Positions 28,858 through 62,344 of a stretch of DNA of 64,000 nucleotides are shown here, one piece after another; the stretch's first letter is position 1; the number at the start of each line of letters is the position of its first letter. The notes beneath the pieces are model-generated. The model made no database searches and was not told the DNA's origin. It saw nothing but the letters and a program-made list of their open reading frames with translations. The translations under genes and the position numbers were made by a program. This stretch comes from Allostellaceae bacterium (GTDB taxonomy: Bacteria > Pseudomonadota > Alphaproteobacteria > ATCC43930 > CGMCC-115725). The stretch spans positions 1 through 64,000 of the forward strand of contig JANWJX010000042.1 of the NCBI GenBank assembly GCA_025451725.1, written 5' to 3'.

Positions 28858-29304
28858 ATGATCCGCATTCACGGCACGGCAATCGCCCTGGGGAGCGACG
28901 GCGTATTGCTGCGCGGCCCATCGGGCAGCGGTAAGTCCGACCTGGCGCTGCGCCTCATCGACGCCGGCGCCGTGCTGATCGCCGACGACCAGACCGAACT
29001 GCGCGACATCGGCGGCACGGTGCGCCTGTCGGCACCGCCGACCATCGCGGGACGCATGGAGGTGCGCGGCGTCGGCATCGTCGAAGTCCCGTCGCGCGCC
29101 TCCGCGCCACTCCGTCTTGTCGCCGATCTGGTGCCCCCGGACCGCGTCGAACGCCTGCCCGAGCCGGCCTGGTGCCGGTATTTGGGTTACGATTTTCCGT
29201 TGCTTGCGCTGACGCCGTTCGAAGTCTCGGCACCCGCCAAGCTGCGCGCCGCCCTCGCCCTACTCACCACCCTTCCCGCTCGCGATGTCGGCGAGCGGCG
29301 ATAG
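28858..29304 (+). CDS. hprK: HPr kinase/phosphorylase (short alphaproteobacterial form)
   Basis: Phosphorylates HPr on a Ser and removes the phosphate, tying the PTS to energy state. The 148-residue form has only the catalytic C-terminal domain, as usual in alphaproteobacteria. The P-loop GPSGSGKS is at 20-27, followed by ADDQTEL (catalytic acidic residues) and the signature MEVRGVGIVEV. It starts ATG at 28858 and overlaps rapZ by 20 bases. The Gram-positive N-terminal sensor domain is absent. Confidence 0.94.
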   Translation: MIRIHGTAIALGSDGVLLRGPSGSGKSDLALRLIDAGAVLIADDQTELRDIGGTVRLSAPPTIAGRMEVRGVGIVEVPSRASAPLRLVADLVPPDRVERLPEPAWCRYLGYDFPLLALTPFEVSAPAKLRAALALLTTLPARDVGERR

Positions 29305-30184
29305 ACCGGCGCGGCTCATTATCGTCACCGGCCTGTCCGGCGCGGGCCGGTCGACCGCATTGAAATCTCTGGAAGATTTGGGTTACGAGACCGTCGACAA
29401 ATTGCCGCTGTCGCTGTTGCCGGCTTTGCTCGGCTCGAAGCCGGCAGCGCACCCGATCGCGGTCGGCATCACGGTGCTGGAAGACGATCGCGACACCGCG
29501 GCGGCACTGACCGCGCTCGACCGGGTCGATGCCAAGACCGAGCGACGCCCGACCCTGGTGTTCCTCGACTGCGACGACGACAAGCTGATCCAGCGCTATA
29601 CCGAGACGCGCCATCGCCATCCCGCCGCCGGCGATCGGCCGGTGAGCGACGGCATCCAGCGCGAGCGTCGGCTGGCGGCGCCCTTGCGCGCCCGGGCCGA
29701 TCTGGTTATCGATACCACCGCGCTCAGCCCGGGCGATTTGAAGCGGTTGTTGCATGGTCATTTCGCGATTGATTCGGCGCCGGGCATCGCCATTTTCGTG
29801 ACTTCGTTCTCTTATCGCCACGGTTTGCCGCGCGATGCGGATTTGGTCCTGGATGTCCGTTTCCTGCGTAATCCCCACTATGTCGCTGAACTGGCGCCGC
29901 TTACCGGCCACGACCCCAAAGTCGCCGCCCATATTGCGGCCGACCCCGATTTTCCGCGATTTTTCAATGATTTATGCGGCTGGCTCAGGCCGCTCTTGCC
30001 GCGCTATGAAAGCGAAGGCAAAAGCTACTTCACCGTCGCCGTCGGCTGTACCGGGGGGCGGCATCGCTCGGTCTATGTCGCCGACCGGCTCGGCGAGGCG
30101 CTGCGCGATCAGGGTTTCCGGGTCGCGGTCGAGCATCGGGACCTGGCACGCGGCGACGCGGCACCTTTGAGGGATGGGACATGA
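29285..30184 (+). CDS. rapZ: RapZ/YvcJ-family nucleotide-binding protein
   Basis: P-loop protein; in E. coli RapZ binds small RNAs and controls glmS. The 299-residue protein has an N-terminal Walker motif GLSGAGRST in which Arg-22 replaces the usual Lys, then LEDLGYETVDKLPLSLL and the C-terminal VAVGCTGGRHRSVYVADRL typical of the family. In alphaproteobacteria it is commonly linked with hprK and the EIIA gene. It overlaps hprK upstream and EIIA downstream by four bases (ATGA). Confidence 0.93.
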   Translation: MSASGDRPARLIIVTGLSGAGRSTALKSLEDLGYETVDKLPLSLLPALLGSKPAAHPIAVGITVLEDDRDTAAALTALDRVDAKTERRPTLVFLDCDDDKLIQRYTETRHRHPAAGDRPVSDGIQRERRLAAPLRARADLVIDTTALSPGDLKRLLHGHFAIDSAPGIAIFVTSFSYRHGLPRDADLVLDVRFLRNPHYVAELAPLTGHDPKVAAHIAADPDFPRFFNDLCGWLRPLLPRYESEGKSYFTVAVGCTGGRHRSVYVADRLGEALRDQGFRVAVEHRDLARGDAAPLRDGT

Positions 30185-30585
30185 TCGGAATGGTTCTTGT
30201 CACACATGGCCGGCTCGCCGCCGAATTCATCGCGGCGCTCGAGCATGTGGTCGGCGGGCAGAAAGCCATCGCCGCGGTATGTATCGGCCCCGACGACGAC
30301 ATGGAAAAGCGACGGCAGGACATTCTGACCGCGGTGTCTGAGGTCGATGACGGCTCGGGCGTGGTGTTGCTGACCGATATGTTCGGCGGCACGCCGTCGA
30401 ACCTCGCCATCTCGGTCATGGACAAGAGCAAGATCGAGGTGATCGCCGGTATCAACCTACCGATGCTGATCAAGCTCGCCGGGCTCCGCCAGACCGAGAC
30501 GCTGGCCAACGCCGTCCGCGGCGCGCAGGAAGCAGGACGCAAATACATCAACGTGGCCTCGCAGCTTCTGGCCGACGTGAAATGA
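30181..30585 (+). CDS. PTS EIIA component, mannose family
   Basis: A 134-residue phosphocarrier. The motif MVLVTHGRLAAEF places the phosphorylated His at residue 9. The segment DMFGGTPSNLA is typical of mannose-type EIIA. No EIIB or EIIC gene lies near, so it probably acts as a regulatory relay rather than for sugar uptake. ATGA overlaps join it to rapZ before and HPr after. Confidence 0.93.
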   Translation: MIGMVLVTHGRLAAEFIAALEHVVGGQKAIAAVCIGPDDDMEKRRQDILTAVSEVDDGSGVVLLTDMFGGTPSNLAISVMDKSKIEVIAGINLPMLIKLAGLRQTETLANAVRGAQEAGRKYINVASQLLADVK

Positions 30586-30872
30586 CCGATGTGGACGGCG
30601 CCGCGCCGCTGCGGCGCTCCGCCACCATCCGCAACCAGCGCGGCCTTCATGCGCGCGCCGCCGCGCGCTTCGTCAAGCTCGCCTGGGAATACGACGCCGA
30701 CGTCACGGTCGCAAAGAATGGAACCGAAGTGTCGGGACGCTCGATTATGGGGCTGATGATGCTGGCGGCCGGACCGGGCACCGTGATCGAGATGCGCGCC
30801 ATCGGGCCGCAAGCGGCGACCGCCCTCGATGCGCTCGCCGCACTGATCGACGGCGGCTTCGATGAAGACTGA
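30582..30872 (+). CDS. Phosphocarrier protein HPr
   Basis: A 96-residue relay protein. The active-site His-23 lies in NQRGLHARAAARF and the regulatory Ser-54 in EVSGRSIMGLMMLA, which is the HprK target site. Its N-terminus is eight residues longer than the classic E. coli HPr. It overlaps EIIA by four bases and EI by 11, so all are translated together. It takes phosphate from EI and passes it to EIIA. Confidence 0.94.
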   Translation: MTDVDGAAPLRRSATIRNQRGLHARAAARFVKLAWEYDADVTVAKNGTEVSGRSIMGLMMLAAGPGTVIEMRAIGPQAATALDALAALIDGGFDED

Positions 30873-32619
30873 CCGCGGCGAGCGCACTCTCACCGGCCTG
30901 TCGATCTCGCCGGGCATCGCGATCGGCCCCGCCTTCATCAGCGACGTCGGCGCCGTCCAGGTGCCGGACTACAAGGTTGCTCATGACGACGTCGCCGCCG
31001 AGCGCAAGCGCCTCGCCGACGCGGTGTCGCTGTCGCTGAGACAACTCGCGAAACTCAAGGTCAAGGCCGCGGCTCTGCCTGGCGCCGCCGCCGAGGAGGC
31101 AGGCTACCTCCTCGACGCGCATGTCGCGATGCTGACCAATTCGCGCCTGGTCCGCGGCGCCGACCGGCGCGTCGGCGACGACCGGGTCAACGCCGAGCGC
31201 GCGGTGCAATTGGAATTGGGCCAGATCGGCTCGAGCTTCGCCGCGATGGACGACGCCTATCTCGCGGCGCGCGGCGACGATATCCGCGTCGTCGGCGCGC
31301 GGCTGATCCGCAACCTGACCAAGACGCCTTACGCCGCGCTGCAACGTCTGGCGCCCGGCACGATCATTGTCGCGGAGGAACTGACTCCCGCCGACACCGC
31401 GCTGATCGATCCGCGCATGGTCGTGGCGCTCGCCACCGAACTCGGCGGCGCCGAGGGCCACACCGCGATCATGGCGCGCGCGCTCGGCTTGCCGGCGGTG
31501 CTGGGCATCGCCGATCTGCTGCGTCGCGTCGAGCCGGGCGATACGATCATCGTCGATGGCGGCATGGGCCGCGTCATCCTCAATCCCACCGCCGCGACCC
31601 GTGCCGCTTATGAGCGTCAGCGCGAGGAGCTGGAACATGAGCGCCGACGTCTCTCCCGCCTGCGCCGCCTGCCGGCGGTGACTCGCGACGGGGTCGAAAT
31701 CACGCTCGACGCCAATCTTGAATTGCCGCGCGAGCGCGAGCTGGCGATCGCTGCGGGCGCGCAGGGATTGGGGCTGGTGCGCACCGAGTTCCTTTACATG
31801 AACCGTGACGACCTGCCCGGGGAGGACGACCAGTACGCCGCCTACGCCGCCTTGGTGCGCGGCATGGACGGCAAGCCCGTCACGCTGCGTACGCTCGACA
31901 TCGGCGGCGACAAGCTCGCCGGCAACATTTCGCCGGAAAGCGCCAACCCGGCGCTCGGCTTGCGGGCGGTGCGGCTGGCGCTTAAAGAGCGGCGCCTGCT
32001 CGACGTGCAGCTTGCCGCGATGCTGCGCGCCAGCGCCATCGGCAAGGTGCGCATCCTGGTGCCGATGATCGCTAATCCCGGCGAGCTACGCGCCGTGCGC
32101 GAGGCGCTGCATCAGGCGGCGCGGCGCCTCAGACGGCGCGGGGTCACTCTTCCCGACCCGCTGCCGCCTTTGGGCGCGATGATCGAGATTCCAGGCGCGG
32201 CGCTCGCCGCCGACGCGCTCGCCGCCGAGGCCGAATTCTTTTCGATCGGCACCAACGATCTGATCCAATACACGCTCGCCATCGATCGCAGCGACGAGCA
32301 GGTCGCCTATCTCTACAACCCGCTTCATCCCGCCGTGTTGCGGCTGATCCAGTTCGCCGTCGAGGCGGCGATGCGGGCGCGGATTCCGGTCAATTTGTGC
32401 GGCGAAATGGCGGGCGATCCGCGTTTCACCGCGCTGCTCCTCGGCTTGGGCCTGCGTAACCTCTCGATGGCGCCGAGCAATATCGGCCGGGTCAAGGAAC
32501 GGATCCGCACCCTCGATCTGCGCGCCGCGACCCAGCGGGCGCGGGCCGTCATGGACCAGACAGACGACGTGAGGATCGCGTCGCTTGTCGACGATTTTAA
32601 TGAAATGCACGGGACTTGA
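30862..32619 (+). CDS. Phosphoenolpyruvate-protein phosphotransferase (EI)
   Basis: First enzyme of the PTS; takes phosphate from phosphoenolpyruvate. The 585-residue protein has the phosphohistidine segment GGAEGHTAIMARALGLPAVLG with His-200, the PEP-binding domain (QGLGLVRTEFLYM, TLDIGGDK), SIGTNDLIQYTLAIDR and the catalytic Cys in NLCGEMAGDP. It lacks an N-terminal GAF domain, so it is EI and not PtsP. It begins inside the HPr gene and ends 135 bases before divL. Confidence 0.95.
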   Translation: MKTDRGERTLTGLSISPGIAIGPAFISDVGAVQVPDYKVAHDDVAAERKRLADAVSLSLRQLAKLKVKAAALPGAAAEEAGYLLDAHVAMLTNSRLVRGADRRVGDDRVNAERAVQLELGQIGSSFAAMDDAYLAARGDDIRVVGARLIRNLTKTPYAALQRLAPGTIIVAEELTPADTALIDPRMVVALATELGGAEGHTAIMARALGLPAVLGIADLLRRVEPGDTIIVDGGMGRVILNPTAATRAAYERQREELEHERRRLSRLRRLPAVTRDGVEITLDANLELPRERELAIAAGAQGLGLVRTEFLYMNRDDLPGEDDQYAAYAALVRGMDGKPVTLRTLDIGGDKLAGNISPESANPALGLRAVRLALKERRLLDVQLAAMLRASAIGKVRILVPMIANPGELRAVREALHQAARRLRRRGVTLPDPLPPLGAMIEIPGAALAADALAAEAEFFSIGTNDLIQYTLAIDRSDEQVAYLYNPLHPAVLRLIQFAVEAAMRARIPVNLCGEMAGDPRFTALLLGLGLRNLSMAPSNIGRVKERIRTLDLRAATQRARAVMDQTDDVRIASLVDDFNEMHGT

Positions 32620-32754: not shown

Positions 32755-34785
32755 GTGGGCGTTACCATCTCGATCGTTCTGCTGGTCATTATCGCGCTGA
32801 TCGCCGCGGTGGCGGTGCGCTGGCGATTGGCCAGGAGCGCTGAGGAGATCGCCGAGGAACGGAACCGCTATCTCGCCGAACTGTCCGCGGCCGAGCACGA
32901 ACGCGAAGTGGCGTCGCAGCAAATTGCCACCAGCCTCGCCCGCGTCGCCGCGACCGCCGGCACGCTCGACGCCTTGCCGATGCCGGTCTGGCACCGCCGC
33001 AAAGGCGACCTGTCGCTGATCGAGGTCAACGAAGCCTACGCCCTGGCGGTCGATTCGACGCGCGAGGCCACCATCGCCGAACAGCGCGAGCTCGGTATCG
33101 GCGTCTTGGGCGAGGACGGCCGCGCCCTCGCGCTGCGCGCGCGCACCATCAACGCGCTCCAGCGCGAAAGCCATCACATCGTCGTCGGCGGTCAGCGGCG
33201 CTTTCTCGAAATCACCGAGGCGCCGCTGCCGAATTCCGACCGGCTTGTCGGTTATGCCCGCGACTACTCGGAGATCGAAGCCAAGGAGAGCGAGCTCAAC
33301 CGTCACGCCGATTCCCATGCCGAAGTGCTGGAAAGCCTCGCGGTCGCGATCGCGATTTTCGGCGTCGATACGCGGCTAAGTTTTTACAATCGCGCCTTCG
33401 CCGCGCTGTGGCAGCTCGATGCCGAATGGCTCGACGCCAATCCGAGCATCGACGAACTGCTCGAACATTTGCGCGAGCGCCGCCGTCTGCCCGAGTTCGT
33501 CGATTTTCCCGCCTATAAGCGCAACGTCCAGGCGATGTTCACGGCGCCCGCCGCGCCGGCGCCTGACTTGATGCATCTGCCCGACGAGCGGACGCTGCGC
33601 GTTTCCGTGTCGCCGCATCCGATGGGTGGCCTGATCTTCGTCTATGACGACGTCACCGACCGGCTGGCGCTCGAGCGCTCGTTCAACACCCTGACCGAAG
33701 TGCAGCGCGAGACGCTCGACCAGCTCAAGGAAGGCGTCGCCGTCTATGGAACGGACGGGCGGCTCAAACTGTCGAACCCGGCCTTCGCGGCGATGTGGAA
33801 ATTGTCGCCGGACGACCTCAAGGGCGAGCCGCATATCAACGAGATCGTCGACAAGACGCGGCCGCTGATCGACCGCGGCGGCGACTGGCCGGCGCAGCGT
33901 CGCGAATTGGTGGCGCGCTTCATGAGCCATGAAGCGCTCGACGAAAAATTGGAACGACTCGACGGCTCGATCCTGCGCGTCGCCACAGTGACGCTGCCCG
34001 ACGGCAACACTCTCTGCCTCTATCTCGACGTCACCGACACGACCAAGCTCGCCGACGCGCTGACCGAGAAGAACGCGGCGCTTGAGGCCGCCGATCGGCT
34101 CAAGAGCGAGTTCATCGCCAATGTGTCGTACGAGTTGCGCACGCCGCTCAATGTCATCGTCGGTTTCTCCGAGCTTCTGGTGAACCAGTATTTCGGCAAG
34201 CTCAACGACCGCCAGATGGAATACAGCAAGGGGATTCTCGGCAGTGCGCAGTCGCTGGCGGCATTGATCGGCGATATTCTCGATCTCTCCACCATCGAGG
34301 CCGGTTATTTGGCGCTCGACGTCGAAACCATCGACATCAAGGAGATGATGGCGAGCCTCCAGACGCTGGCGCACGAACGGGCGCGGGGGCGCAATGTCGG
34401 CTTCCGGCTCGACGTGCCTGCGGATATCGGCAGCCTCAAAGGCGATCAGCGGCGCCTCAAACAGGCGATGTTCAACCTCCTGTCCAACGCCTTCAAATTT
34501 ACCCCGGCGGGCGGCGAGGTGACGCTGGCGGCACGGCGGGTGCAGGACGGCGTTGCGCTGTCGGTCGCCGACACCGGGCCGGGCGTACCGCCCGAGGACA
34601 TCGCCCGCATCTTCGTCAAATTTGAGCGCGGCACGGCGCCGACCCGCGCCAATGGCGGCGCCGGTCTGGGCCTTGCGCTGGTCAAGAGCATCGTCGAGCT
34701 GCACGGCGGGCGGATCGAGCTCGATTCGGTCGCGGGCATCGGCACCGCGGTGATCTGCTTCCTGCCCAACGAGCCGCCGGCATAG
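32755..34785 (+). CDS. divL: DivL-type PAS sensor tyrosine kinase
   Basis: A 676-residue protein with one N-terminal membrane helix (VTISIVLLVIIALIAAVAV), a coiled-coil, PAS-like domains at about 60-430 and a kinase core. The H-box reads FIANVSYELRTPLNVIVGF, so the phosphoacceptor position is Tyr-459 instead of His, the hallmark of Caulobacter DivL, a regulator of the CckA-CtrA pathway. The ATP-binding parts (N-box QAMFNLLSNAFKFTP, DTGPGVP, GGAGLGLALV) are intact. GTG start at 32755, with GGAAA upstream. It sits close to tsaE, a familiar order for divL. Confidence 0.88.
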   Translation: MGVTISIVLLVIIALIAAVAVRWRLARSAEEIAEERNRYLAELSAAEHEREVASQQIATSLARVAATAGTLDALPMPVWHRRKGDLSLIEVNEAYALAVDSTREATIAEQRELGIGVLGEDGRALALRARTINALQRESHHIVVGGQRRFLEITEAPLPNSDRLVGYARDYSEIEAKESELNRHADSHAEVLESLAVAIAIFGVDTRLSFYNRAFAALWQLDAEWLDANPSIDELLEHLRERRRLPEFVDFPAYKRNVQAMFTAPAAPAPDLMHLPDERTLRVSVSPHPMGGLIFVYDDVTDRLALERSFNTLTEVQRETLDQLKEGVAVYGTDGRLKLSNPAFAAMWKLSPDDLKGEPHINEIVDKTRPLIDRGGDWPAQRRELVARFMSHEALDEKLERLDGSILRVATVTLPDGNTLCLYLDVTDTTKLADALTEKNAALEAADRLKSEFIANVSYELRTPLNVIVGFSELLVNQYFGKLNDRQMEYSKGILGSAQSLAALIGDILDLSTIEAGYLALDVETIDIKEMMASLQTLAHERARGRNVGFRLDVPADIGSLKGDQRRLKQAMFNLLSNAFKFTPAGGEVTLAARRVQDGVALSVADTGPGVPPEDIARIFVKFERGTAPTRANGGAGLGLALVKSIVELHGGRIELDSVAGIGTAVICFLPNEPPA

Positions 34786-34802
34786 GCAACGACGGCGTAG
34801 CT

Positions 34803-34862
34803 AGGGTCGGATCGCCCTTGATGGAATCGCCTTCGCGATCCATCAGGCGTGAATCCGACCCT
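34803..34862. repeat. Dispersed repeat family B, copy 1 (60-base hairpin)
   Basis: Arms AGGGTCGGAT (34803-34812) and ATCCGACCCT (34853-34862) frame an inner inverted pair around TGATGGAATCGC and GCGATCCATCA. Bases 34808-34857, read on the minus strand, match 60517-60567 over about 50 bases. It lies between divL and the oppositely oriented reductase gene. Confidence 0.75.
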
Positions 34863-34874
34863 ATCAAATAATGA

Positions 34875-34933
34875 GAGTGCGATTCACCGGTCGGACGGAA
34901 GCGAACATGCTTCCGTCTGACCGGATCGCACTC
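34875..34933. repeat. Large imperfect palindrome ending at the reductase stop
   Basis: Arms GAGTGCGAT (34875-34883) and ATCGCACTC (34925-34933) enclose a second inverted pair built on CGGTCGGACGGAAGC and GCTTCCGTCTGACCG. It directly follows the family B copy and its last base is the final base of the reductase gene, so it could act as a convergent terminator. Confidence 0.65.
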
Positions 34934-35940
34934 TAGCGCCCGGGCACGCCGGTCGTCGTCGAATATTGGAAGTGCAGCGCCTCGCCGGGCCGCACCAGCG
35001 GGAAGATGGCGCGCGACGCCTGCGCCGCTTCGGCAAAGCCGGTCAGGATCAGCTTGAGTTTGGCGGGATAGGTGGCGATGTCGCCGACGGCGAAAATGCC
35101 GGGCACCGACGTGGCGCCGGTCGCCTGATCGACCGCGATATGGCTCTGGTCGAGCGCCAAACCCCATTGCGCGATCGGCCCGAGATTCATGGAGAGGCCG
35201 AAAAACGGCAGCAGCCGGTCGGCCTCGAGCCGCCGCGTCTTGCCGTCGAGATCGACGACGGTGACGGCGCGGAGCTGGCCGTTCTCGCCGTCGAGTCCGT
35301 GGAGCTGGAAGGGCGTCACCAGCTCGACCTTGCCGTCGGCGGCGAGGCGTTTCAGCCGCGCCAGCATTTCGGGCGCGGCGCGAAACTTGTCGCGGCGATG
35401 GACCAGCATCACCGAGGCAGCGACCTCGGCCAGCGACACCGCCCAGTCGATCGCCGAATCGCCGCCGCCGGCGATTACGACGCGGCGGCCGCGATACTCC
35501 TCGCGCCGCTGCACCAAGTAGAACACGCTTTTGCCCTCGAACGATTCGATGCCGTCGAGCGGCGGCCGGTTGGGACCGAACGCGCCGACCCCCGCGGCGA
35601 CGATGACCGCGCCGGCCTCGATCGAGTTGCCGTCGTCGGTGCCGAGGCGGAAGCCGCCGCCCGGCAGCGCCTCCAGCCGGTCGACGCGATGCCCGAGATG
35701 ATAGAGCGGCTCGAAGGGCGCGGCCTGTTCGGAAAGCCGCTCGATCAATTGCTGCGCCTCGATCACCGGATAACCCGGAATGTCGTAAATCGGCTTTTCG
35801 GGATAGAGCGCGGCGCATTGCCCGCCCGGCATGTCGAGCACGTCGATGACGTGACAGGAGAGACCGAGCATGCCGCATTCGAACACGGCAAACAGCCCGA
35901 CCGGCCCGGCTCCGATAATCGCCACGTCCCTGCGCTGCAT
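34933..35940 (-). CDS. Ferredoxin/flavodoxin-NADP+ reductase, thioredoxin-reductase-like
   Basis: A 335-residue FAD flavoprotein. FAD loop IIGAGPVGLFAVFECGM (residues 8-24), the MPGGQCAALYPEKPIYDIPG segment, NADP loop VVIAGGGDSAIDWAV and the final FAVGDIATYPAKLKLILTGFAEAAQASR mark the TrxR-like FNR (YumC) type. It lacks the CxxC redox pair of thioredoxin reductases. AAGGAG precedes the ATG at 35938-35940; a longer frame upstream runs across tsaE on the other strand and is rejected. Divergent from tsaE. Confidence 0.92.
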   Translation of the reverse strand: MQRRDVAIIGAGPVGLFAVFECGMLGLSCHVIDVLDMPGGQCAALYPEKPIYDIPGYPVIEAQQLIERLSEQAAPFEPLYHLGHRVDRLEALPGGGFRLGTDDGNSIEAGAVIVAAGVGAFGPNRPPLDGIESFEGKSVFYLVQRREEYRGRRVVIAGGGDSAIDWAVSLAEVAASVMLVHRRDKFRAAPEMLARLKRLAADGKVELVTPFQLHGLDGENGQLRAVTVVDLDGKTRRLEADRLLPFFGLSMNLGPIAQWGLALDQSHIAVDQATGATSVPGIFAVGDIATYPAKLKLILTGFAEAAQASRAIFPLVRPGEALHFQYSTTTGVPGR

Positions 35941-36037
35941 TTTTTCTCCTTGGCGGCGGAGAATGGCCGGGCAGGGGACCCCGCGCAAGCGCCGCGCTTG
36001 TTGCCCCGCCAAGCCGAAACAGAATAAGACTGGCGCG

Positions 36038-36496
36038 ATGGCGCGGCGCGTGATCGACCTTGCCGACGAGGCGCAAACGGCGCGGCTGGCTGCCCGGATC
36101 GCGGCCGCGGCGCGGACGCGCGACACGATCGCGCTATCCGGTCCGCTCGGCAGCGGCAAGACCAGCTTCGCCCGCGCGTTCATCCGTTCCCTCGGCAATG
36201 GCGACGAAGACGTCCCGAGTCCAACCTTCACCCTGGTCCAGACCTATGAATTTCCGGGCCGGCCGACCGTGTGGCATTTCGATCTCTATCGGCTCGAAGC
36301 GGCGGACGAAATCTATGAGCTCGGCATCGAGGAGGCGTGGGCGGACGGGATTTGCCTGATCGAGTGGCCCGAGCGCATCGCGGCGCTCCTGCCGCGCGAC
36401 CGGCTCGACATCGCGCTGGCGGCCGGCGAGCAGCCGCAGCAGCGGCGCGCCACGGTGACCGGGCCGGCGCGCTGGGACGCGGTGCTCGATGGCTGA
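36038..36496 (+). CDS. tsaE: tRNA threonylcarbamoyladenosine synthesis ATPase TsaE
   Basis: ATPase partner of TsaD/TsaB in making the t6A modification of tRNA. The 152-residue protein has the P-loop SGPLGSGKTSFARAFIRSLG and then PSPTFTLVQTYEFPGRPTVWHFDLYRLEAADE, a firm TsaE signature, and CLIEWPERI. The ATG is at 36038. It overlaps amgK by eight bases, forming a tsaE-amgK-murU-addB run. Confidence 0.95.
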   Translation: MARRVIDLADEAQTARLAARIAAAARTRDTIALSGPLGSGKTSFARAFIRSLGNGDEDVPSPTFTLVQTYEFPGRPTVWHFDLYRLEAADEIYELGIEEAWADGICLIEWPERIAALLPRDRLDIALAAGEQPQQRRATVTGPARWDAVLDG

Positions 36497-37493
36497 CCGC
36501 GCGGCGCTTATCCGCGATTTCCTCGCGACGCATCGCTTGGCCGAGGCGACATGCACGCCGCTCGCGATGGACGCGTCGTTCCGGCGGTATGTGCGGCTAG
36601 CGGCGGGCGACAGGCGCGCCATCCTGATGGACGCGCCGCCACCGCAGGAAGACGTGCGGCCCTTTATCGCGATCCAGACCCTGCTGCGCGGCATGGATCT
36701 GAGCGCTCCCGAGATTTTCGCCGCCGACATCGAGCGCGGCCTTTTGTTGATCGAAGATTTCGGCGACGGCACCTATACGCGCCTGCTCGCCGCCGGCGAG
36801 GCCGAGGAACCGCTTTATGCGCTCGCCGTCGATGTGCTGATCGCGTTGCGTCGGCGGTTCGAAGCGGCGGCGAGCGACCTGCCGCGCTATGACGAGGCGC
36901 GGTTCCTCGACGAGGCGGTGCGTTTCGTCGACTGGTATCTGCGCCTTGTCGCCGGGAAGGAAGCGCCGGCGGCGCTGCGCGAGGATTATCTCGCGCGCTG
37001 GCGCGTGGTGTTAGCGTCGGCAGAGAGTACGCCGGCGACGCTGGTACTGCGCGACTACCATGTCGACAATCTGATGCGTGTCGCCGGGCGTAACGGCGTC
37101 GCCGCCTGCGGGCTCTTGGATTTTCAGGACGCAGTGCTCGGTCCCGCGACCTACGATCTCATGTCACTGCTCGAAGACGAGCGCCGCGACGTGGCATTGC
37201 CGCTGCGGCAAAAAATGATCGCACGCTATCTCGCCGCCTTTCCCGATCTCGATCGCGACGGCTTCGCCACCTCCTACGCCGTCATGGGCGCACAGCGGCA
37301 TGCCAAGAATATCGGCCAGTTCGCGCGCCTCAAATTGCGCGACGACAAGCCGCACTACCTCAAACATATTCCGCACATGTGGCGACTCCTGATCGAGGAT
37401 CTGGCGCACCCGGCGCTGGCGCCGGTGCGGCAATGGTTCGAAGCGAACGTACCGCCCGGCTGGCGGCGCGTGCCGGAAAGCGCGCTCGCATGA
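36489..37493 (+). CDS. amgK: Aminoglycoside-phosphotransferase-like sugar kinase (AmgK-like)
   Basis: Likely anomeric sugar kinase for N-acetylmuramate/N-acetylglucosamine in peptidoglycan recycling. In 334 residues the APH fold is shown by ASFRRYVRLA (nucleotide-binding strand), LLLIEDFGDG (hinge), the catalytic LRDYHVDNLM and the metal-binding GLLDFQDAVLGPATYDL. Pairing with murU directly downstream (ATGA overlap) strongly supports the AmgK/MurU pathway that bypasses de novo UDP-MurNAc synthesis. Its start lies inside the tsaE gene. Confidence 0.88.
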   Translation: MADRAALIRDFLATHRLAEATCTPLAMDASFRRYVRLAAGDRRAILMDAPPPQEDVRPFIAIQTLLRGMDLSAPEIFAADIERGLLLIEDFGDGTYTRLLAAGEAEEPLYALAVDVLIALRRRFEAAASDLPRYDEARFLDEAVRFVDWYLRLVAGKEAPAALREDYLARWRVVLASAESTPATLVLRDYHVDNLMRVAGRNGVAACGLLDFQDAVLGPATYDLMSLLEDERRDVALPLRQKMIARYLAAFPDLDRDGFATSYAVMGAQRHAKNIGQFARLKLRDDKPHYLKHIPHMWRLLIEDLAHPALAPVRQWFEANVPPGWRRVPESALA

Positions 37494-38221
37494 ACATGCC
37501 GGCGACCGCGCCAAAAACCGCCATCGTGCTGGCGGCGGGCCTTGCCACCCGCATGCGGCCGATCACCGACACCATGCCGAAGGCGCTGATCCCGGTCGCG
37601 GGCAAGCCGATCATCGACCACGCCATCGACCGCCTGGTCGCGATCGGCGTCAAGCGCATCGTGGTCAATCTGCATTATCGCGGCGACATGATCGCGCGCC
37701 ATCTCGAAGGGCGGCGCGACGTCGAGATCGTGCTGTCGCCGGAGGACGAGCTCCTCGACAGCGGCGGCGGCGTGGTCAATGCGCTGCGGCATCTCGGCGA
37801 GATTTTCTACGTGATCAATGCCGATGTGTTCTGGCTCAACGGCAAGGTGCCCGCGCTGATCCGCATGGCGCGCGCCTTCGACGAGGAAAAGATGGATGGG
37901 TTGTTGTTGATGCAACGCACCGTCACCGCCGTTGGGATCGACGGGCCGGGCGATTTCATGATCGACTCCGCAGGCCTGTTGCGCTGGCGGGGCGAAACCG
38001 AGATCGCGCCGCACTATTTCGCCGCCGTCCAGATGCTGCATCGCCGCTTTTTCGGCGGCGCGCCGGCGGCGAAATTCTCGATCAAACCCTATTGGACGCG
38101 CGCCATCCTGGCGGAGCGGCTCTACGGCATCGTCCATGACGGCGAATGGTATCACCTCGAAACGCCGAAGGGCCTGGCCGAGGTTGAGCAGCGCCTCGCA
38201 TCGCGGCGCATCGAGCGCTGA
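37490..38221 (+). CDS. murU: Nucleotidyltransferase, MurU-like
   Basis: A 243-residue sugar-1-phosphate nucleotidyltransferase that would activate MurNAc-1-phosphate to UDP-MurNAc. The signature VLAAGLATRMRPITDTMPKAL holds the nucleotide-binding loop and the catalytic Lys in PKALIPVAGKPI. The metal-binding Asp is in INADVFW. It lies right after amgK, with a four-base overlap, and two bases before addB. The substrate follows from the pairing, not from the sequence alone. Confidence 0.87.
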   Translation: MNMPATAPKTAIVLAAGLATRMRPITDTMPKALIPVAGKPIIDHAIDRLVAIGVKRIVVNLHYRGDMIARHLEGRRDVEIVLSPEDELLDSGGGVVNALRHLGEIFYVINADVFWLNGKVPALIRMARAFDEEKMDGLLLMQRTVTAVGIDGPGDFMIDSAGLLRWRGETEIAPHYFAAVQMLHRRFFGGAPAAKFSIKPYWTRAILAERLYGIVHDGEWYHLETPKGLAEVEQRLASRRIER

Positions 38222-38223
38222 CC

Positions 38224-41166
38224 GTGGCGTTTTACACCATCCCCGCCCATTTGCCGTTTCTCGACGCGCTGGTCGCCGGGATTTTGCCGCACGCCGGAAG
38301 CGATCCGCTCGCCCTGACACGCATCACCATCCTGCTGCCGACACGGCGCGCGGCGCGCAGCCTCGGCGAGGCGTTTTTGCGCGCGAGCCAGGGCCGCGCC
38401 CTGCTGTTGCCGCGCATGATGCCGGTCGGCGATCTCGACGCCGAGGAATTGGCCATCGGCGACGATGACGACGCGCTCGCCGTGCCGCCGGCCTTGCCGC
38501 CGCTGAGGCGGCAATTGCTGCTGGCGCAATTGGTGCGCCGCTGGAGCGCGCGCCCCGGCGGCAGTCCGGTGACGCCGGGCCAGGCCTTGCCGCTGGCCCG
38601 GTCGCTCGCCGAATTTCTCGACATCGTGCAGACCGCGCGTTGTGACATAGCGGCACTTAAAAACCTCGCACCCGACCGGTTCGCGGAACACTGGCAGCAC
38701 GTGCTGAAATTCCTCGAGATCGTCACCGACTACTGGCCGGTGATGCTGGCCGAGGCTGGTGCGCTCGATCCCGCCGAGCGGCGCAACCGCGTGCTGGCGG
38801 CGCGGATCGCCGCGTGGGAAAAGGCCCCGCCGCAGGACCCGGTGATCGCGGCGGGATTGAGCGGCGGCATCGCCGCCGTTGGCGATCTGATCGCCGCCGT
38901 GTCGCGGCTGCCGCACGGCGATGTCGTACTGGCGGGGCTGGAACTCGATTCGGCGAGCGTCGACGCCGTGGCTGCCGATCCGACCCATCCGCAACATCTC
39001 CATGCGCACCTTCTATCCCGCTTCGGTCTGGTGCCGGAGCAAATTCCGGTTTGGGGTAAGAGGCGCAAGGCAACGCCCTCGCCGCGGCGCGCGCTGGTCG
39101 CCGCCGCGCTGGCACCGGCAAGTGAAACCGATGGCTGGCGCCGGCGGACCGATTTCAAGGCAGACGCGGTCGCCGACCTGCGCCGGCTCGACTGTGCCGG
39201 CGCACAGGAAGAAGCCGAGACCATTGCACTGCTGATGCGGCAAGCGTTGATCGTACCCGAGCGCACGGCGGCACTGGTGACGCCGGATCGCGCGCTGGCG
39301 CGGCGCGTCGCCGCCGAACTCAAGCGCTGGGACATCGAGATCGACGATTCCGCCGGCGTGCCCCTCGACCAGACGCCGCCCGCCGTGTTCCTGCGCCTCC
39401 TGCTCGACACTGCGACGCGGGAACTGGCCCCGTTGCCGCTGTTGGCACTGCTCAAGCATCCACTGGCGGCAGCGGGTTTGGCGCCCGAGATTTTCCGCGC
39501 GCGCGTCCGAAGGCTCGAGGAGCAATGCCTGCGCGGGCCGCGCCCCGCGCCGGGTCTTGCGGGATTGCGCCGCGCCGTGCCGCCCGGCGACCGTGCCCTC
39601 GGCGATCTTGTCTCGCGGCTCGAGGCGGCGCTGACGCCGCTGATCGCGCTTTTCGGCGCGCGCGAGACCAGCCTTGCCGACGTGGTTGCCGCGCACATCG
39701 CCGCCGCCGAGCAATTGGCGCGCAGCGATGCCGAGAGCGGCGCCGACCGGCTATGGGCCGAGATCGCCGGCGAGACGGCGTCGCAGTTCGTCGCCGAGCT
39801 CAACGCCGCCGCTTCCGACTATCCGGCGATCGCGGGCGGCGACTATGCCGCGTTGTTTGAGTCGCTAATCGCCGGCACGGTGGTGCGACCGCGCTTCGGC
39901 CGTCATCCGCGTCTCGCCATCTGGGGCTTGCTCGAAGCGCGGCTGCAACGCGCCGACGTTATGATCCTCGGTGGCCTCAATGAAGGGGTCTGGCCGCCGC
40001 AGACCGAAAGCGACGCGTTCCTGTCGCGGCCGATGCGCCAGGCCTTCGGCCTGCCGTCGCCCGAGGAGCGGATCGGCATCGCGGCGCACGATTTCGCGCA
40101 AGCGCTCGGCGCGCGCGCGGTGTGGCTGACGCGCGCGGCGCGGGTCGAGGGCACGCCGACCGTGCCGTCGCGCTGGCTGTTACGGCTCGATACGGTGCTG
40201 CGCGCCTCGACCATCGAACGCGAACTCAACGCCGCGCACGAGCCGCTGTCATGGCAGCGCCTGCTCGACACGCCCGCCGCGTCCGAATGGAAACGCGCGG
40301 CGCCGCCGAAGCCGCGCCCGCCGGTCGGCGACCGGCCGCGAAAATTGCCGGTGACGCAGATCGAGCGCCTCATCCGCGACCCCTATTCGGTCTATGCGCG
40401 GCAGATCCTCGATTTGCGACCGCTCAAGCCAATCGACGAGCCGCCCGATGCCGCCGCGCGAGGCTCCTTCATCCACGACGCGCTCGATCGGTTCCTGCGC
40501 GAGCATCGTGGCGCGCTGCCGGCAAATGCCGAGCGGCGGCTGATCGCGATCGGCGAGGAGTTGTTCGCGGCGTGGAGCGACCGGTCCGAACTGCGCGCCT
40601 TCTGGTGGCCGCGCTTCCTGCGGATCGCGCGCTGGTTCGTCGAGCATGACGGCGCGCGGCGCTTCGGCCTCGCCAGCATCGCCAGCGAAATTTCCGGCGA
40701 GTATTCCTTCGCCGCGCCCGGCGGCGACTTCACCCTCACCGCCAAGGCCGACCGTATCGACCGGCGGCACGACGGCGCGCTTGCCATCGTCGATTACAAG
40801 ACCGGCGGCGTGCCGCGCGCCGCGGAATGGGATTTGGGCTATGCGCCGCAATTGCCGCTCGAGGCCGCGATGGCGGAAGCAGGCGCGTTCAAGGATATCG
40901 CAGGCGCAGTCGCGGAGCTGGAATTCTGGCGCCTCAGCGGCGGCGATCCGCCCGGCGAGGTCAAACCGCTGGCCAAAGACTCGGCAAAGCTGCGCGAACT
41001 GATCGACGGCGCGCTACCGGGCCTCAAGCGGCTGATCGCCGCCTTCGACCGGGTCGAGACGCCGTACGAGGCGGTGCCGCGCAGCGAATACGCGCCGCGT
41101 TACAACGATTACGAACACCTCGCGCGCATCAAGGAGTGGCTGGCGGCAGACCGCGGCGAGGAATGA
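38224..41166 (+). CDS. addB: Double-strand break repair protein AddB
   Basis: Nuclease/helicase-like subunit of the AddAB complex that resects DNA double-strand ends. The 980-residue protein starts at GTG 38224 with ITILLPTRRAARSLGEAFL, has the family motif MILGGLNEGVWPPQTESDAFLS in the middle and ends with a PDDEXK nuclease domain (FTLTAKADRIDR, then IVDYKTGGVP near residues 855-864). The gene follows murU without a gap. The usual partner addA, a UvrD-like helicase expected directly downstream, is not present: the next gene is convergent and overlaps addB by 38 bases. Confidence 0.94.
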   Translation: MAFYTIPAHLPFLDALVAGILPHAGSDPLALTRITILLPTRRAARSLGEAFLRASQGRALLLPRMMPVGDLDAEELAIGDDDDALAVPPALPPLRRQLLLAQLVRRWSARPGGSPVTPGQALPLARSLAEFLDIVQTARCDIAALKNLAPDRFAEHWQHVLKFLEIVTDYWPVMLAEAGALDPAERRNRVLAARIAAWEKAPPQDPVIAAGLSGGIAAVGDLIAAVSRLPHGDVVLAGLELDSASVDAVAADPTHPQHLHAHLLSRFGLVPEQIPVWGKRRKATPSPRRALVAAALAPASETDGWRRRTDFKADAVADLRRLDCAGAQEEAETIALLMRQALIVPERTAALVTPDRALARRVAAELKRWDIEIDDSAGVPLDQTPPAVFLRLLLDTATRELAPLPLLALLKHPLAAAGLAPEIFRARVRRLEEQCLRGPRPAPGLAGLRRAVPPGDRALGDLVSRLEAALTPLIALFGARETSLADVVAAHIAAAEQLARSDAESGADRLWAEIAGETASQFVAELNAAASDYPAIAGGDYAALFESLIAGTVVRPRFGRHPRLAIWGLLEARLQRADVMILGGLNEGVWPPQTESDAFLSRPMRQAFGLPSPEERIGIAAHDFAQALGARAVWLTRAARVEGTPTVPSRWLLRLDTVLRASTIERELNAAHEPLSWQRLLDTPAASEWKRAAPPKPRPPVGDRPRKLPVTQIERLIRDPYSVYARQILDLRPLKPIDEPPDAAARGSFIHDALDRFLREHRGALPANAERRLIAIGEELFAAWSDRSELRAFWWPRFLRIARWFVEHDGARRFGLASIASEISGEYSFAAPGGDFTLTAKADRIDRRHDGALAIVDYKTGGVPRAAEWDLGYAPQLPLEAAMAEAGAFKDIAGAVAELEFWRLSGGDPPGEVKPLAKDSAKLRELIDGALPGLKRLIAAFDRVETPYEAVPRSEYAPRYNDYEHLARIKEWLAADRGEE

Positions 41167-59685: not shown

Positions 59686-60057
59686 GTGGCGACGACGATC
59701 CTTCTCATTGATGACGACCCGCTGGTCGCTTTCACCGTCGAGCGCATGCTCCAAGGCGGCGGCTTCACCGTGATTCGCGCCGCCGATGGCGAAAAGGGCC
59801 TGCGCCTCCTCAAGGAACAGAAAGTCGACCTCATTATCACCGACATCATCATGCCGGTGAAGGAAGGTATCGAGACCATCCGAGAGATTCGCGAGCACGA
59901 CGCCAAGCTGCCGGTGATCGCGGTGTCGGGCGGTGGGCACGGCTCGGGCGGCAATTATCTGCGCATGGCGCAGGCGCTCGGCGCCACCGAGATCCTGACC
60001 AAGCCGTTCGACCAGGACGAATTGCTCGGCGCGGTGAAGCGCTGCTTGAAACAATAG
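59686..60057 (+). CDS. CheY-like single-domain response regulator
   Basis: A 123-residue receiver domain with LIDDDP near residue 7-12, the phosphoacceptor Asp in LIITDIIMP (about residue 53), Ser in VIAVSGGG and Lys in LTKPF. It has no output domain. GTG start at 59686 with GGCGAGAG upstream. A partner kinase is not in the window. It is followed after 17 bases by an SCP2 protein. Confidence 0.9.
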   Translation: MATTILLIDDDPLVAFTVERMLQGGGFTVIRAADGEKGLRLLKEQKVDLIITDIIMPVKEGIETIREIREHDAKLPVIAVSGGGHGSGGNYLRMAQALGATEILTKPFDQDELLGAVKRCLKQ

Positions 60058-60377: not shown

Positions 60378-60516
60378 ACCCGCCGCCTTACCGGGGCGGA
60401 GAGACTTCAGTCATTGTCCTGTAACACGCGACCCCTCGCGGGGCGGGGCGCCACGCCGCGCTTTCGCTCGGCCAAAGATCGCGCTATGTGTCGCCCGCCA
60501 ATTTATTGATCAGAGA

Positions 60517-60567
60517 CGGATTCGCACCTGATGGAATCGCCTGTGGCGATTCCGCAAAGGCGATCCG
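60517..60567. repeat. Dispersed repeat family B, copy 2
   Basis: Matches the minus strand of 34808-34857 over about 50 bases (CGGATTC, CCTGATGGA, GGCGATTCC, GGCGATCCG in common). It lies 28 bases upstream of the ABC permease start. The surrounding gap, 60378-60595, holds short GC hairpins but no clear promoter. Confidence 0.75.
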
Positions 60568-60595
60568 GCTCAAGAGCAAATTCGAGACAGACACG

Positions 60596-62344
60596 ATGGC
60601 CGAGCGTTGGGGATTGCCGATCGTCGCTTGGCCACAGCGCCTGCGTCCCAATTATTGGGACGGGATCGCGCTGCCCGTGGTGATCGGGGTCATCCTGCTC
60701 GCCGGTTGGGCCAGCCAGCAAATGGCCGCGCCCTACCAGCCGGGCCAGGAACTGCCGATCTCGCTCGACCCGGCGAACCTCCCGGCATACGGCGCCCGCA
60801 CCGTGCTGCGCATGATCGCGGCGCTGGCCTTCTCGCTGATCTTCAGTCTCGGTTACGCCGCCATCGCCGCCAAGAGCCGCCGGGCGGAAAAACTGCTGAT
60901 CCCGATCCTCGACATTCTGCAATCCGTTCCGATTCTCGGCTTTTTGTCGATCACCGTGACCGGGTTCGTCGCGTTGTTTCCGGGGAGCCTGCTCGGTTAC
61001 GAGTGCGCCGCCATCTTCGCCATCTTCACCTCGCAGGCCTGGAACATGACGTTCAGCCTGTACCAGTCGTTCCTCGGCGTGCCCATGGATCTGCGCGAGG
61101 CGGCGCGCATGTACCACCTAACGCCGTGGCAGAGTTTCTGGCGGCTCGAAGTGCCCTACGCCATGCCGCAATTGACCTGGAACATGATGATGTCGGTGTC
61201 GGGCGGCTGGTTTTTCGTGGTCGCCTCCGAGGCGATCAGCGTCGCCGGCCACGACGTCAAGCTGCCGGGCATCGGCTCTTATATTGCCATGGCGATCGAG
61301 CAGCGCGATCTCGCCGCCGTTGCCTACGCCATTCTCGCCATGCTGGTGCTGATCCTGGCCTACGACCAGATTCTGTTCCGGCCGCTGCTGGCCTGGTCGC
61401 AGAAATTCAAGGTCGAGGCCATCGGCGGCGACGAGGTCGAGCCCCCCTGGTTCCTCTCCATGCTGCAAAAGGCGCGGCTGTTCGCGCTGGCCGAAGGCGC
61501 CATCGATTATCTGCGCATGCTGATGAGCCGGGCCCGGCGCGGCCTGCCGCAACTTCGCCGGCTTGAGGCGCCGGGACGCGCCGCCGCCGTGGCGCGCGAG
61601 CGGTGGTTAGATTATGCCTGGAACGCCGTGCTGCTGCTGATCGCGGCTTACACGCTGTGGCGGATCGTGGCTTTCGTGCAGGCCGAAGTGACCATGCACG
61701 AATTTCTCCATGTCCTGTTCCTGGGCTTCGTCACCTTGATCCGGGTCGTGGTCCTGATCGCGCTGGCGGCGTGCGTGTGGGTGCCGATCGGCGTGTGGAT
61801 CGGATTGCGCCCCACCCTCGCCCATCGCGTCCAGCCGATCGTGCAATTCCTCGCCGCGTTTCCGGCCAATCTGTTTTTTCCCGTGGCCGTGTTCCTGATC
61901 GTGCGATTCCATCTCAATGTCGAGATTTGGGTCAGCCCGCTGATGATTCTCGGCACGCAATGGTACATTTTGTTCAACGTCATCGGCGGCACGATGGCGC
62001 TGCCGACCGATTACCAGTATGTCGCCGGCAATCTCGGCGTGACGCGGTGGCTGTGGTGGCGGCGGCTGATCCTGCCGGCGATCTTCCCCGCTTTCGTCAC
62101 CGGCGCGGTGACGGCGTCCGGCGGTTCGTGGAACGCCAGCATCGTCTCCGAGATCGTGAAGTGGGGCAACACGACGCTGGTCGCCACCGGCATCGGCGCC
62201 TATATCGCGCAGCAGACCGAGGCCGGCGATTTTCCGCGCATCGCGCTTGGCGTGGCGGTGCTGTGCCTTTATGTCTTGGCCTTCAACCGGCTGCTGTGGC
62301 GGCGGCTTTACAATCTTGCGGAAGAACGACTGCGGCTCGACTGA
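60596..62344 (+). CDS. ABC transporter permease with two fused membrane domains
   Basis: A 582-residue permease with two binding-protein-dependent transport domains in one chain. The first (about 60-280) has a permease-loop motif in MDLREAARMYHLTPWQSFWRLEVPYAMPQL, the second (about 340-575) in VAGNLGVTRWLWWRRLILPAIFPAFVTGAVTASGG. It is of the nitrate/sulfonate/taurine type. ATG at 60596; a frame open 36 codons upstream runs through a repeat and is rejected. The ATPase gene follows at once; a substrate-binding protein is absent. Confidence 0.9.
   Translation: MAERWGLPIVAWPQRLRPNYWDGIALPVVIGVILLAGWASQQMAAPYQPGQELPISLDPANLPAYGARTVLRMIAALAFSLIFSLGYAAIAAKSRRAEKLLIPILDILQSVPILGFLSITVTGFVALFPGSLLGYECAAIFAIFTSQAWNMTFSLYQSFLGVPMDLREAARMYHLTPWQSFWRLEVPYAMPQLTWNMMMSVSGGWFFVVASEAISVAGHDVKLPGIGSYIAMAIEQRDLAAVAYAILAMLVLILAYDQILFRPLLAWSQKFKVEAIGGDEVEPPWFLSMLQKARLFALAEGAIDYLRMLMSRARRGLPQLRRLEAPGRAAAVARERWLDYAWNAVLLLIAAYTLWRIVAFVQAEVTMHEFLHVLFLGFVTLIRVVVLIALAACVWVPIGVWIGLRPTLAHRVQPIVQFLAAFPANLFFPVAVFLIVRFHLNVEIWVSPLMILGTQWYILFNVIGGTMALPTDYQYVAGNLGVTRWLWWRRLILPAIFPAFVTGAVTASGGSWNASIVSEIVKWGNTTLVATGIGAYIAQQTEAGDFPRIALGVAVLCLYVLAFNRLLWRRLYNLAEERLRLD

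Follow-up and report, generated by a model that had tools for sequence, protein, structure and literature searches.

A DivL orthologue with tyrosine in place of the H-box histidine in an uncultured alphaproteobacterium, and the natural variation of that residue among DivLs

Is a kinase-like protein whose phospho-accepting histidine is replaced by tyrosine a DivL, and if so, which circuit would it control? The question is raised by one gene of the window, by which we mean the whole stretch of 64,000 nucleotides analysed (contig JANWJX010000042.1, a metagenome-assembled genome of an Allostellaceae bacterium). The gene and its neighbours are arranged as follows.

28858..32619, plus strand: block of hprK, rapZ, EIIA, HPr and ptsI (Pfam/NCBIfam), which adjoins divL in several relatives
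32755..34785, plus strand: divL orthologue with an N-terminal hydrophobic segment (by eye), PAS repeats, HisKA and HATPase_c
34129..34131, plus strand: TAC codon of Tyr459, which replaces the phospho-accepting His (read from the sequence); equivalent of Caulobacter Tyr550
about 34933..35940, minus strand: FNR-type pyridine-nucleotide-disulphide oxidoreductase (Pyr_redox_2), convergent, between divL and tsaE
35870..36496, plus strand: tsaE as the listed ORF (PF02367, TIGR00150)
36489..37493, plus strand: AmgK-like kinase of the APH fold (NCBIfam AmgK best, below its cut-off)
37379..38221, plus strand: MurU-like nucleotidyltransferase (NCBIfam MurU best, below its cut-off)
38224..41166, plus strand: addB (TIGR02786, 968.8 bits, over its cut-off)

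The divL ORF (32755-34785, plus strand) begins with GTG and encodes a 676-residue product, in which PAS_7 (two stretches), HisKA and HATPase_c all score over the Pfam cut-offs; the open frame amounts to 695 residues, shorter than in most listed relatives. The GC content by codon position (0.69/0.43/0.84, in a window of 66% GC) is as expected for a real gene. The H-box His that an active histidine kinase needs is absent. In its place residue 459 is Y (sequence context SEFIANVSYELRTPLNVIVG; SEFIANVSYELRTPLN), encoded by the TAC codon at 34129-34131, and the H-box motif reads VSYELRTP. The remaining kinase boxes are intact, namely N578, D606/G608 and G637/G639 of the N, G1 and G2 boxes. Both points had been made in the original prediction, the Tyr-459 substitution as well as the integrity of the other boxes, and both are borne out by the sequence. 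Of the kinase matches in this genome, ten others lie in the loci read and align over the position, and all ten carry the His.

The gene order is hprK, rapZ, EIIA, HPr, ptsI, divL, the minus-strand oxidoreductase, tsaE, amgK, murU and addB. The start of the oxidoreductase was inferred from the sequence, and the true start of tsaE probably lies downstream of the listed one because the Pfam match begins at residue 65. The placement of divL "a few genes upstream of tsaE" was inaccurate, as a single convergent gene lies between them; the same oxidoreductase is found at this place in the relatives G009, G010 and G012, which keep the whole block, and beside the C38 copy of divL in G097. The window divL thus sits in the conserved DivL-TsaE-AmgK-MurU-AddB neighbourhood that we used as a criterion for DivL, taken from named alphaproteobacterial records; several other relatives share this order with the records of Methylobrevis, Xanthobacteraceae and Albimonas. 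The block is not universal: the regions read around the Tyr divLs in G005 (14 kb) and G013 (9.6 kb), and around several divergent divLs, showed no conserved neighbours. A 353-residue plus-strand ORF (34966-36027) matches no Pfam family, overlaps the oxidoreductase on the opposite strand and is regarded as a shadow frame. Where divL and the oxidoreductase gene converge, two long near-perfect hairpins lie next to each other (34800-34866 and 34874-34936), with folds of -43 and -49 kcal/mol. They have no terminator-like T run, and no second copy was found in the window or in the loci compared with it.

Comparison with solved structures revealed Caulobacter DivL (PDB 4q20) as the best match of the window protein, with an E-value of 1.4e-51, followed by another histidine kinase at 2.7e-36; in the alignment VSYELRTP is common to both DivLs, so that Caulobacter DivL carries the same substitution, as had been proposed. 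A FastTree tree was built from 224 DivL loci, five named reference DivLs (Caulobacter, DHp-CA part only; Methylobrevis; two Xanthobacteraceae; Albimonas) and six other kinases of the same genome. The 229 DivLs group together with a support of 0.904, apart from an outgroup limited to those six kinases, all from this one genome; a single clade (support 0.988) holds the 28 sequences from the family of this bacterium. Scanning of named genomes with a single protein query rather than an alignment gave 15 loci, of which five (L220 to L224) are DivL-like. The structure match, the position inside the DivL group and the conserved gene order uphold the assignment to the DivL type. Judged by these comparisons, the window gene is an ordinary alphaproteobacterial DivL and appears to bring an uncultured genus into the range of a known cell-cycle circuit.

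Within this genus, the DivL of G002 is 67% identical and carries Tyr, and a piece of DivL in G003 is 85% identical and stops at a contig end before the H box. The best match in the third congener, G001 (100% complete), is at generic-kinase level (3.9e-68, 33% identity). As G001 has CtrA over the cut-off as well as DivK (5.5e-62), either DivL was lost or it falls in a gap between the 260 contigs. A similar pattern is seen in genus g9 of the same family, where four genomes (G011, G020, G024, G028) have no DivL above generic-kinase level (best 4.9e-57), CtrA over the cut-off in all four and DivK in three, an apparent DivL loss. In family f2 of the same order, none of four genomes (G037 to G040) has a DivL-level match (best 3.4e-45), and G037, the one of them queried for CtrA, has none over the cut-off; f2 is seemingly a sister family lacking the DivL-CtrA pathway.

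In a sample of 387 genomes from the class, searching with the window protein gave a DivL in 204 at 1e-85 or better and no match at this threshold in the other 183; within the own family, 30 of 39 genomes matched at 1e-70 or better, fragments included. The aligned H-box column of 224 loci (223 genomes) holds Tyr in 181 and His in 20, the latter reduced to 17 once three f67 sequences without an alignable DHp domain were dropped. The other states are F, R and T (four each), Q (three), S and G (two each), V, K and L (one each) and one stop. The stop belongs to G302 (L085/L280), in which an in-frame TAG falls exactly on the Tyr codon of an otherwise intact and syntenic divL; rather than a recoded residue, the simpler account is that TAC/TAT mutated or was misread in sequencing. 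Another genome, G097, has two DivL genes (L084 on C79, L216 on C38), both with Tyr; the one on C38 lies in the conserved neighbourhood. Parsimony on the tree places Tyr at the root and counts a total of 24 residue changes when the f67 artefact is included, or seven for His versus not-His with f67 excluded. The accessible text of a 2014 paper describes the Tyr as conserved throughout DivL homologues except for Ala in Magnetospirillum magneticum (PMC4211667). In the present alignment the H-box Tyr is not universal, and since some DivL orthologues carry His or another residue, Tyr by itself does not define a DivL.

A DivL of the Caulobacter kind would need partners. The genome is a 1.73-Mb assembly of 70 contigs, 61% complete. 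CtrA is found on contig C10 (NF045991, 411.7 bits against a cut-off of 350); the same model matched 12 of 14 control genomes, one of them over the cut-off. CckA lies on the same contig, the pair falling between about 3.3 and 7.7 kb. Its best PDB match is 5idj (4.7e-69), and the NCBIfam CckA model scores 681.5 bits against a cut-off of 1000 on a fragment truncated where the locus ends; we take this C10 protein as CckA. A hybrid kinase on C23 (L041) was rejected for that role, with 370 bits on the CckA models against 681. ChpT is on C26, with PF10090 over its cut-off and NCBIfam ChpT below; PF10090 matched only Caulobacter among the 14 controls. The suggestion that the window points to a CckA-CtrA type of control is therefore supported, with CtrA, CckA and ChpT all in this genome; neither of the two outcomes named beforehand as counting against it, a genome lacking CckA/CtrA and a tree position outside DivL, was obtained. 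Of the four genes proposed for the genome-wide search, divK was the one not found: no protein of the 61%-complete assembly matched at 1e-28, the best receiver reaching 4.5e-25 (42% identity). DivK is present in two of the three congeners, G001 (5.5e-62) and G003 (7.5e-62), both at 79% identity, and gave no match in G002.

Two receivers were considered as DivK and set aside. The one at C9:3646 matched DivK (9.5e-25) and PleD (3.3e-24) about equally. The other is a stand-alone receiver gene in the window (59686-60057), which had no NCBIfam match at 1e-25 and is not among the matches listed at 1e-20 in the DivK search of this genome; it is followed by a short ORF and, by eye, an apparent ABC-transporter permease (60488-62344). 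The full CtrA site, TTAA-N7-TTAA, does not occur in the window.

We propose that the window gene is very probably a divL orthologue with a pseudokinase module, which would serve DivK~P-responsive control of CckA-ChpT-CtrA, as in Caulobacter. Sequence, domains, orthology, gene order and the presence of CckA, ChpT and CtrA were observed directly; DivK~P sensing and CckA control are inferred for the window DivL by analogy. The DHp domain would retain the shape on which a response regulator docks, and Tyr459 would be unable to accept phosphate in the usual way. Free DivL would keep CckA, a hybrid kinase, in its kinase state, from which phosphate would be relayed through ChpT to CtrA; phosphorylated DivK, docking on the DHp domain around Tyr459/Arg462, would change the shape of DivL and thereby turn CckA to phosphatase. 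Of seven interface or switch positions defined in Caulobacter, two are identical in the window DivL (Tyr550 and Arg553). Three others, T557 to N, Y562 to F and H579 to Y, show the commonest states among Tyr DivLs; D595 to G and A601 to S are rarer (9 and 17 of 181). As T557N disrupts DivK binding in Caulobacter, according to passages of PMC4211667, and N is native here, the docking code would have to be a different one. Constraint was measured in two sets of Tyr DivLs and is strongest in the DHp domain, with a pN/pS of 0.08-0.09 compared to 0.30-0.42 for PAS and CA.

The H-box residue was also compared with the presence of DivK. Of the 203 DivL genomes other than that of the window, 197 were read (G160, G205, G207, G284, G398 and G419 left out), and a genome was counted as having DivK when a protein matched the Caulobacter one at 1e-28 or better. 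DivK was present in 148 and absent from 11 genomes with Tyr, present in 11 and absent from one with His, and present in seven and absent from 15 with other residues; the three genomes without an alignable DHp lack it and the one with a stop at the H-box codon has it. Setting these four aside leaves 193 genomes, 159 with and 12 without DivK for Tyr or His versus 7 and 15 for other residues. In Fisher's test p is 2.2e-10 when genomes are counted and 4.6e-4 when families are, with related genomes and families treated as independent. The survey is consistent with docking, as Tyr or His stands in nearly all genomes with DivK and other residues go mostly with its absence; the seven genomes with DivK and another residue, and the 11 with Tyr and no DivK, speak against a simple rule. 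The available part of PMC2877005 states, as data not shown, that a kinase-less DivL always accompanies the absence of DivK, and that of PMC9430884 describes Rhodobacterales without DivK whose DivL has no kinase domain.

The missing divK could also mean that DivL serves a DivK-free CtrA pathway in this species, in motility or stress rather than the cell cycle. Seven other genomes do combine a Tyr DivL and CtrA with no detectable DivK (G045, G060, G174, G254, G314, G322, G383); we nevertheless consider this unlikely, given the 61% completeness of the assembly and the DivK of the congeners G001 and G003. Still less probable is a genuine tyrosine kinase that autophosphorylates Tyr459 and hands the phosphate on. 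The intact ATP boxes would suit such an enzyme, and a 1999 paper, known from its title in the reference list of PMC4211667, calls Caulobacter DivL a bacterial tyrosine kinase. However, the text of PMC4211667, as far as accessible, reports no autokinase activity, weak binding of an ATP analogue, a dispensable CA domain and a Y550F variant still selective for DivK~P, and 30 of the 181 Tyr DivLs lack, or are gapped at, at least one of the five ATP-box residues, some of these being sequences cut at contig ends. That the protein is a plain PAS/PleC-DivJ-type sensor kinase whose Tyr arose from a random mutation or a faulty assembly is scarcely credible and already refuted, even though generic NCBIfam kinase models score on the protein (none over its cut-off among the best 25 of 79 families) and the assembly is in 70 contigs, because independent orthologues bear the Tyr (181 of 224 loci, the congener G002 included) while ten of ten other kinases aligned from the genome keep His, and gene order and tree match DivL.

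Besides the pseudokinase reading preferred for the window gene, the survey brought up DivLs with a natural His. The 17 loci belong to f1/g11 (five genomes), f38/g48 (five), f82/g165 (four), G122 of f82, G086 of f46 and G246 of f7, several lineages nested among Tyr-bearing DivLs; in g11, part of the otherwise Tyr-bearing own family, five sequences with His are interspersed with three that have Tyr. Five of the seven His loci whose neighbourhood was read are positional orthologues: G021, G025, G031 and G061 keep DivL-TsaE-AmgK-MurU, with AddB found in the first three, and G393 of f38 has AhcY between HPr and DivL and otherwise the block from ChvG to AddB, in which neither ptsI nor the FNR-type gene was found. 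No conserved neighbours were found around the His divLs of G029 (8.6 kb) and G122 (12.5 kb). An f38 divL used as query against plasmids gave no match. DivK is present in 15 of the 17 genomes, with none in G031 (80% complete) and G246, and CtrA is over the cut-off in 14, with partial or weaker matches in G061, G356 and G416.

Eight of the 17 (five of f38, G122, G029 and G031) retain every one of the five ATP-box residues, and the other nine, f82/g165 included, have substitutions as aligned. In the f82/g165 genomes (G214, G291, G356, G416) and G086 of f46, a His phospho-acceptor thus seems to stand beside an apparently non-working ATP site. The f38 DivLs have a pN/pS of 0.08 in DHp, a constraint equal to that of the two Tyr sets, and 0.33 in CA, values for f38 and g11 being rough because dS is near saturation; the CA domain of f82/g165 is much looser (0.67). 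In Caulobacter, as given in the part of PMC4211667 at hand, DivL acts neither as a kinase nor as a phosphatase and its DHp domain binds DivK~P, and Y550H keeps DivK~P binding and viability, with growth and shape defects, its autophosphorylation being stimulated by DivK~P. Several alphaproteobacterial lineages, one of them in the own family, appear to have restored the His. Given the intact ATP boxes of f38/g48, G122 and the two g11 genomes G029 and G031, the pseudokinase may there have reverted to activity, and, tentatively, these DivLs could perhaps be active DivK-linked kinases or phosphatases again, which may talk directly to the CckA-CtrA pathway. A natural His DivL finds no mention in the accessible portions of the open-licence papers searched, including PMC4211667, PMC2877005, PMC9430884, PMC8116508 and PMC11500502.

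Set against known systems, the window DivL shares with Caulobacter crescentus DivL (4q20) the replacement of the H-box His by Tyr and a DHp-CA module of the same clade, but differs at five of the seven DivK-interface or switch residues. The DivLs of Methylobrevis albus (L221) and a Xanthobacteraceae assembly (L222), each about 42% identical to it, likewise have Tyr and the order DivL-TsaE-AmgK-MurU-AddB; the FNR-type gene between divL and tsaE was not found in either. Albimonas donghaensis DivL (L224) shares this gene order but carries Leu at the H-box position (VSLRMRTP) where the window protein has Tyr, and the accessible part of PMC9430884 mentions an Albimonas DivL whose HK/CA domains are degenerate. 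The natural His DivLs of g11, f38/g48, f82 and the two single genomes fall inside the DivL clade and differ from the window DivL in having the His. As putative revertants they make the role of His loss testable, and together with the DivLs that have neither Tyr nor His they are evolutionary experiments on why the kinase was disabled and what would follow if it were switched on.
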